NCBI GenBank assembly: GCA_010356995.1
Contig: ML996698.1
Span: 678,064 to 742,063 of the forward strand
DNA from: Trichodelitschia bisporula
Taxonomy: Eukaryota > Ascomycota > Dothideomycetes > Phaeotrichales > Phaeotrichaceae
Length of the DNA stretch: 64,000 nucleotides
Direction of reading: 5' to 3'
The position numbers and the translations under genes were made by a program. Positions 46,436 through 46,513 of the stretch are shown one piece after another. Each line of letters starts with the position of its first letter. The stretch's first letter is position 1. The notes beneath the pieces were generated by a model. That model had not been told where the DNA came from. It ran no database searches and saw nothing but the letters and a program-made list of their open reading frames with translations.

Positions 46436-46513
<78 letters not shown>

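Follow-up and report, generated by a model that had tools for sequence, protein, structure and literature searches.

A long G/C homopolymer in a probable ancestral intron of the Trichodelitschia bisporula YFH7-like kinase gene, and its many counterparts in the same genome

The G77 run and the kinase gene around it

The window analysed here is a stretch of 64,000 nt (C12:678064-742063) from the Trichodelitschia bisporula assembly, which comprises 25,654,952 bases (25.65 Mb) in 30 contigs. Inspection of its sequence confirmed the uninterrupted poly-G described in a first-pass annotation: G occupies all 77 positions of 46436..46512 on the forward strand. With G at about 28%, such a run lies far above chance expectation. 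The whole window is free of N and there is no gap at the tract. A DNA fold of 46400-46560 was uninformative (z -0.40), and the folding program probably does not model quadruplexes. The run is crossed by a minus-strand open reading frame of 299 aa (45727-46626), for which it is C77 in the RNA sense. The translation there reads GPS followed by 27 prolines, a block that sits between the conserved family N-terminus and the GIPGSGKTT motif of a P-loop kinase sequence. The best PDB sequence match of the ORF is 2ga8 (E 1e-30), presumably Yfh7, and the earlier naming of the gene as a YFH7-like kinase is borne out by it. Sequence match, N-terminus and GIPGSGKTT are all alike between the focal kinase and YFH7-like P-loop kinases such as 2ga8; only the unspliced reading of the gene departs from them, by 30 extra residues. 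A search of the genome for a second close copy of the kinase gave none. Besides the focal locus there are 14 other matches, several of them at other tracts, and the longest (C20:519113-519721) shows 31% identity (E 8e-7).

A public protein from the same species, P0001 (269 aa), is identical to the window ORF minus GPS and the 27 prolines; it is the depositor's annotation, and thus a protein model as opposed to a transcript. The first-pass annotation had taken the run to encode those prolines and had stressed that the frame is kept exactly. The arithmetic stands, in that the 299-aa frame does run through the tract, but it is weak evidence for coding because C runs have no stop in any frame. We read in sequence all 171 G/C runs of at least 20 nt in the assembly that have a base before them. 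A C-sense frame is open across the tract and its flanks of up to 180 nt at 62 of the 171, a G-sense frame at 17 and a frame in either sense at 69, while 49.75% of 2000 random control stretches of 360 nt hold at least one open frame. Frame openness was discarded as a test for coding, since the C-rich flanks themselves lack stops.

A putative phase-1 intron behind a conserved tryptophan

The sequence absent from P0001 is a 90-nt interval, GTCCGTCT-C77-ACCAG, with GT...AG borders in phase 1, which we annotate as a putative intron (46431..46520; this and the following features are on the minus strand). Coding exon 1 (46521..46560), with a start supported by homology, would consist of MEAAVERLVQKAW and the first base of a split codon. 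The 5' splice site region, GTCCGTCT (46513..46520), would in the kinase RNA have poly-C directly behind it, a layout of donor and then C tract that is seen at other tracts too. The candidate 3' splice site, ACCAG (46431..46435), comes immediately behind the C tract, and coding exon 2 (45727..46430) then supplies the P-loop GIPGSGKTT and the remaining kinase. Removal of the interval produces the junction TGG G|...|AT, which is read as W-D. A later acceptor, TCCCAG, lies 29 nt further on and was rejected because the resulting 119-nt interval breaks the frame. The donor, GTCCGT, is not of the commonest type; it also precedes the tract intron at locus L133, where CTAAC and TAG follow downstream.

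Comparison with homologs supports a conserved position for this interval. Once it is removed, the tryptophan and the P-loop of the focal gene are 16 residues apart, the spacing found in 96 of the 102 homologs that could be scored (the other 18 of the 120 listed, P0001 among them, start late or have a divergent motif). One of the remaining six has a spacing of 18, and five (P0002, P0009, P0024, P0032 and P0118) carry inserts of 16-28 residues directly after the same tryptophan. P0002, P0032 and P0118 come from Lignoscripta, Massarina and Sclerophora. The inserts are mutually dissimilar, none of them is a proline run, and their first residues (G, G, S, G and G) fit a codon split N|GT; they resemble introns that the gene predictions failed to remove. 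In P0011, P0028, P0031, P0056 and P0082, which start late, homology judged by eye begins approximately at this point, which is what interruption of the open frame by an intron would produce. A GT...AG interval at a conserved position and phase, as in a spliceosomal intron, is thus what we find, the homolog side of the comparison coming entirely from predicted protein sequences. The restored spacing of 16, together with the unrelated inserts after the tryptophan, therefore makes an ancestral intron the most likely location of the tract. The first-pass annotation had itself proposed an ortholog comparison as a check, and the outcome goes against its view of the run as 27 encoded prolines: none of the 120 listed homologs has a proline run at this position, and five have intron-like inserts there. 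The same-species protein model, which omits the block, and the genome-wide context described below also speak against a coding polyproline, and we do not favour this reading.

One feature usual in an intron is missing. The 90-nt interval has no branch-point motif upstream of its acceptor, the sole match (CTAAT) being in exon 2, and it is possible that bases were lost here in assembly. Splicing may thus be unusual here, the interval may stay in the mRNA in frame, or bases may be missing from the assembly at the tract. Retention would still yield an intact protein, because 90 nt is a multiple of three and the interval is free of stops. It may be envisaged that a former intron lost its branch point, for instance through expansion of the C tract, and today stays in all or some of the mRNA, such that the kinase carries GPS and the 27 prolines ahead of its P-loop, much as the first-pass annotation had it. 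The missing motif and the stop-free length both fit this account. Against it, a multiple of three is expected in one third of cases, open C-sense frames are common (at 62/171 tracts, as noted above), the public model of the species omits the block and 0 of the 120 listed homologs has prolines there. Retention strikes us as unlikely. The slippage-driven frame switching and polyproline stalling that had been envisaged for this gene would be irrelevant to a spliced mRNA, and would be possible if the intron is retained.

Long G/C tracts and their intron signals across the genome

The 171 G/C runs of at least 20 nt compare with just two A/T runs, and at a threshold of 12 nt the counts are 594 and 40. 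The G/C tracts range from 20 to 98 nt (median 31), with lengths divided 57/57/57 modulo 3. Nine of them are longer than 77 nt, and the focal run, which the first-pass annotation had placed, if real, among the longest it knew in a coding frame, is not exceptional in this genome. A pattern read in reverse finds 176 runs as opposed to 171, and a few more runs must therefore have a gap or the end of a contig in front of them. Exact tract lengths are uncertain, given failures of the assembly at such tracts: the one at L089 ends in a gap, and at L079 (positions 150-240 of that locus) the sequence after a 10-N gap repeats the preceding flank as far as a C28 tract. The L079 defect is likely an assembly error at a poly-C intron. 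These failures, and the runs that lack a preceding base in the forward search, lend some substance to the idea that the focal tract is real but that the assembly dropped adjoining bases, including the branch point, from what would then be a longer and quite ordinary intron. No gap is present at the focal tract, however, and the ACCAG at the 3' end of the interval abuts exon 2 precisely. We count this scenario within the intronic interpretation and regard it as a genuine possibility, though not as the expected case.

Signals of introns at these tracts depend on the sense in which they are read. A donor within 24 nt upstream occurs in the C sense at 27 of the 171 tracts, compared with a block-shuffle mean of 7.7 and maximum of 17 (300 shuffles), and in the G sense at 25/171, against a shuffle mean of 34.3. 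When a donor, a branch point and an AG were all demanded, the C sense gave 26/171 (mean 5.0, maximum 13; 200 shuffles) and the G sense 15/171 (mean 14.7). The focal tract is included in both C-sense counts, and passed the combined test only by way of a false acceptor in exon 2. Likewise, a CTRAY-like motif lies within 75 nt downstream at 21 of the 27 donor-bearing tracts, the focal one qualifying solely by the CTAAT of exon 2; with the focal tract set aside, the motif is found within 75 nt at 20/26 donor-bearing tracts, as against 45/144 of those without a donor. Tracts with intron signals (26-27/171) are a minority, and the majority show none in these tests.

A splice-and-translate scan returned 27 loci with a long frame over the putative junction, where each result is the best of several choices per locus and some, including that for the focal locus, are surely wrong. 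Nine of the spliced fragments were tested against Pfam, and six contain a domain that extends over the junction: a protein kinase (L103), an aspartyl protease (L166), a RING domain (L158, by two residues), a fungal transcription factor (L054), DNA polymerase B (L121) and Abp2 (L139). The fragments from L051, L059 and L129 gave no Pfam match. Domains that continue across six of nine predicted junctions argue for an intronic position, within conserved genes, of at least several poly-C tracts.

Two further loci deserve mention. At L093 an intron with a C34 tract would need a GC donor (AAG|GCACGT); the fragment there, VKLVLLGEAAVGK / SSLVMRFVNNDF, is by eye presumably a Rab-like GTPase. At L074 (C6:1241150-1241650) a C90 tract lies beside a reported open frame of 1648 aa and was suspected on that account of being coding. 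In the 501 bp that we examined, this frame is closed by a stop codon shortly ahead of the tract (by a few codons), within a GTGAGTAG stretch that lies just upstream.

The dependence on sense also bears on the caution, voiced in the first-pass annotation, that the run might be an artefact. G is the dark base in two-colour sequencing, and dark-cycle poly-G, or some other fault of sequencing or assembly, would agree with the finding that only G/C runs are long in this assembly. Such a fault would nevertheless ignore the direction of transcription, and since it does not explain why intron signals are enriched in the C sense only, we disfavour it for the tract as a whole. Tract lengths moreover run continuously from 20 to 98 nt with no notable break, and tracts with single-base interruptions exist (L026 and L133, for example). 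An artefact of the whole run is thus highly improbable, and the caution retains its force for the exact length.

Interpretation and precedents in other genomes

We consider it very probable that the tract is a homopolymer in an ancestral spliceosomal intron of the YFH7-like kinase gene, and that it belongs to a genome-wide class made up of many long G/C homopolymers with almost no long A/T counterparts. This putative intron would be removed from the mRNA. In members of the class that bear intron signals, these appear to be detectable in the C sense alone. We suggest that replication slippage most likely lengthens G/C runs and that introns may tolerate them as poly-C, while poly-G in pre-mRNA would be selected against.

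The closest precedent comes from nematodes. One study describes 396 poly-G/poly-C tracts of 18-32 nt in the 100 Mb of C. elegans, mostly intergenic or intronic, with 121/396 in introns and 4/396 in predicted exons (PMC2211496). Like those of C. elegans and C. briggsae, the fungal tracts are pure G/C homopolymers, far above chance expectation and scattered over the genome (PMC2211496), and the large excess of G/C over A/T runs in the fungus fits a set of the C. elegans kind. The fungal set differs in number and length, with 171 tracts of 20-98 nt in 25.65 Mb. Intragenic G tracts in C. elegans favour the non-coding strand (84 vs 47; PMC2211496), which is the same direction as in the fungus if the non-coding strand there means the template strand. 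Their maintenance in C. elegans is attributed to DOG-1, a FANCJ-like helicase (PMC9071541). A survey of mononucleotide repeats in fungal coding sequence counted G/C runs as 80 of 298 repeats of at least 15 nt, the longest repeat being 68 A (PMC2621210). Its cases resemble ours in being long homopolymers within predicted fungal genes, and differ in that the survey concerns predicted coding sequence whereas the focal tract is most likely intronic. Our search of the openly licensed literature for papers on G/C tracts in Trichodelitschia found none.

Loss of a repair gene was considered as a cause of these tracts. Matches are present in the assembly for MutS_V (seven matched pieces at six loci), for DEAD_2 (three pieces at two loci, not assigned to orthologs) and for PIF1 (one locus). 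The control genomes are prokaryotic and provide no fungal yardstick, and for this reason we draw no conclusion on repair-gene loss.

In place of a coding homopolymer, the broader point that emerges is that very long G/C tracts are numerous in this fungus, in parallel to nematodes, some of them apparently intronic and, where intronic, in one transcriptional sense. The fungus thus provides a second lineage for studying why G/C runs lengthen and how they persist, and also why poly-C in pre-mRNA seems better tolerated than poly-G. There is a practical warning as well, in that poly-C introns which happen to be in frame and free of stops can pass for proline blocks in a genome viewed through its ORFs. 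A bolder proposal would have two parts: that the kinase intron, made up of an 8-nt donor region, 77 C and ACCAG, is spliced without a branch-point adenosine in any usual place, the poly-C itself making this possible; and that this genome has undergone a specific expansion of G/C homopolymers to about 98 nt, some three times the longest reported C. elegans tract. As a whole we consider this proposal rather doubtful.

Other repeats are present in the same window. A C-rich 75-bp unit occurs in three tandem copies at 49920-50143 (85% matches), and a (CT)33.5 repeat lies at 25449-25515 (93% matches). A further repeat, (TCC)25 at 51594-51668 (88% matches), adjoins or falls within a reported 629-aa open frame at 51535-51672.
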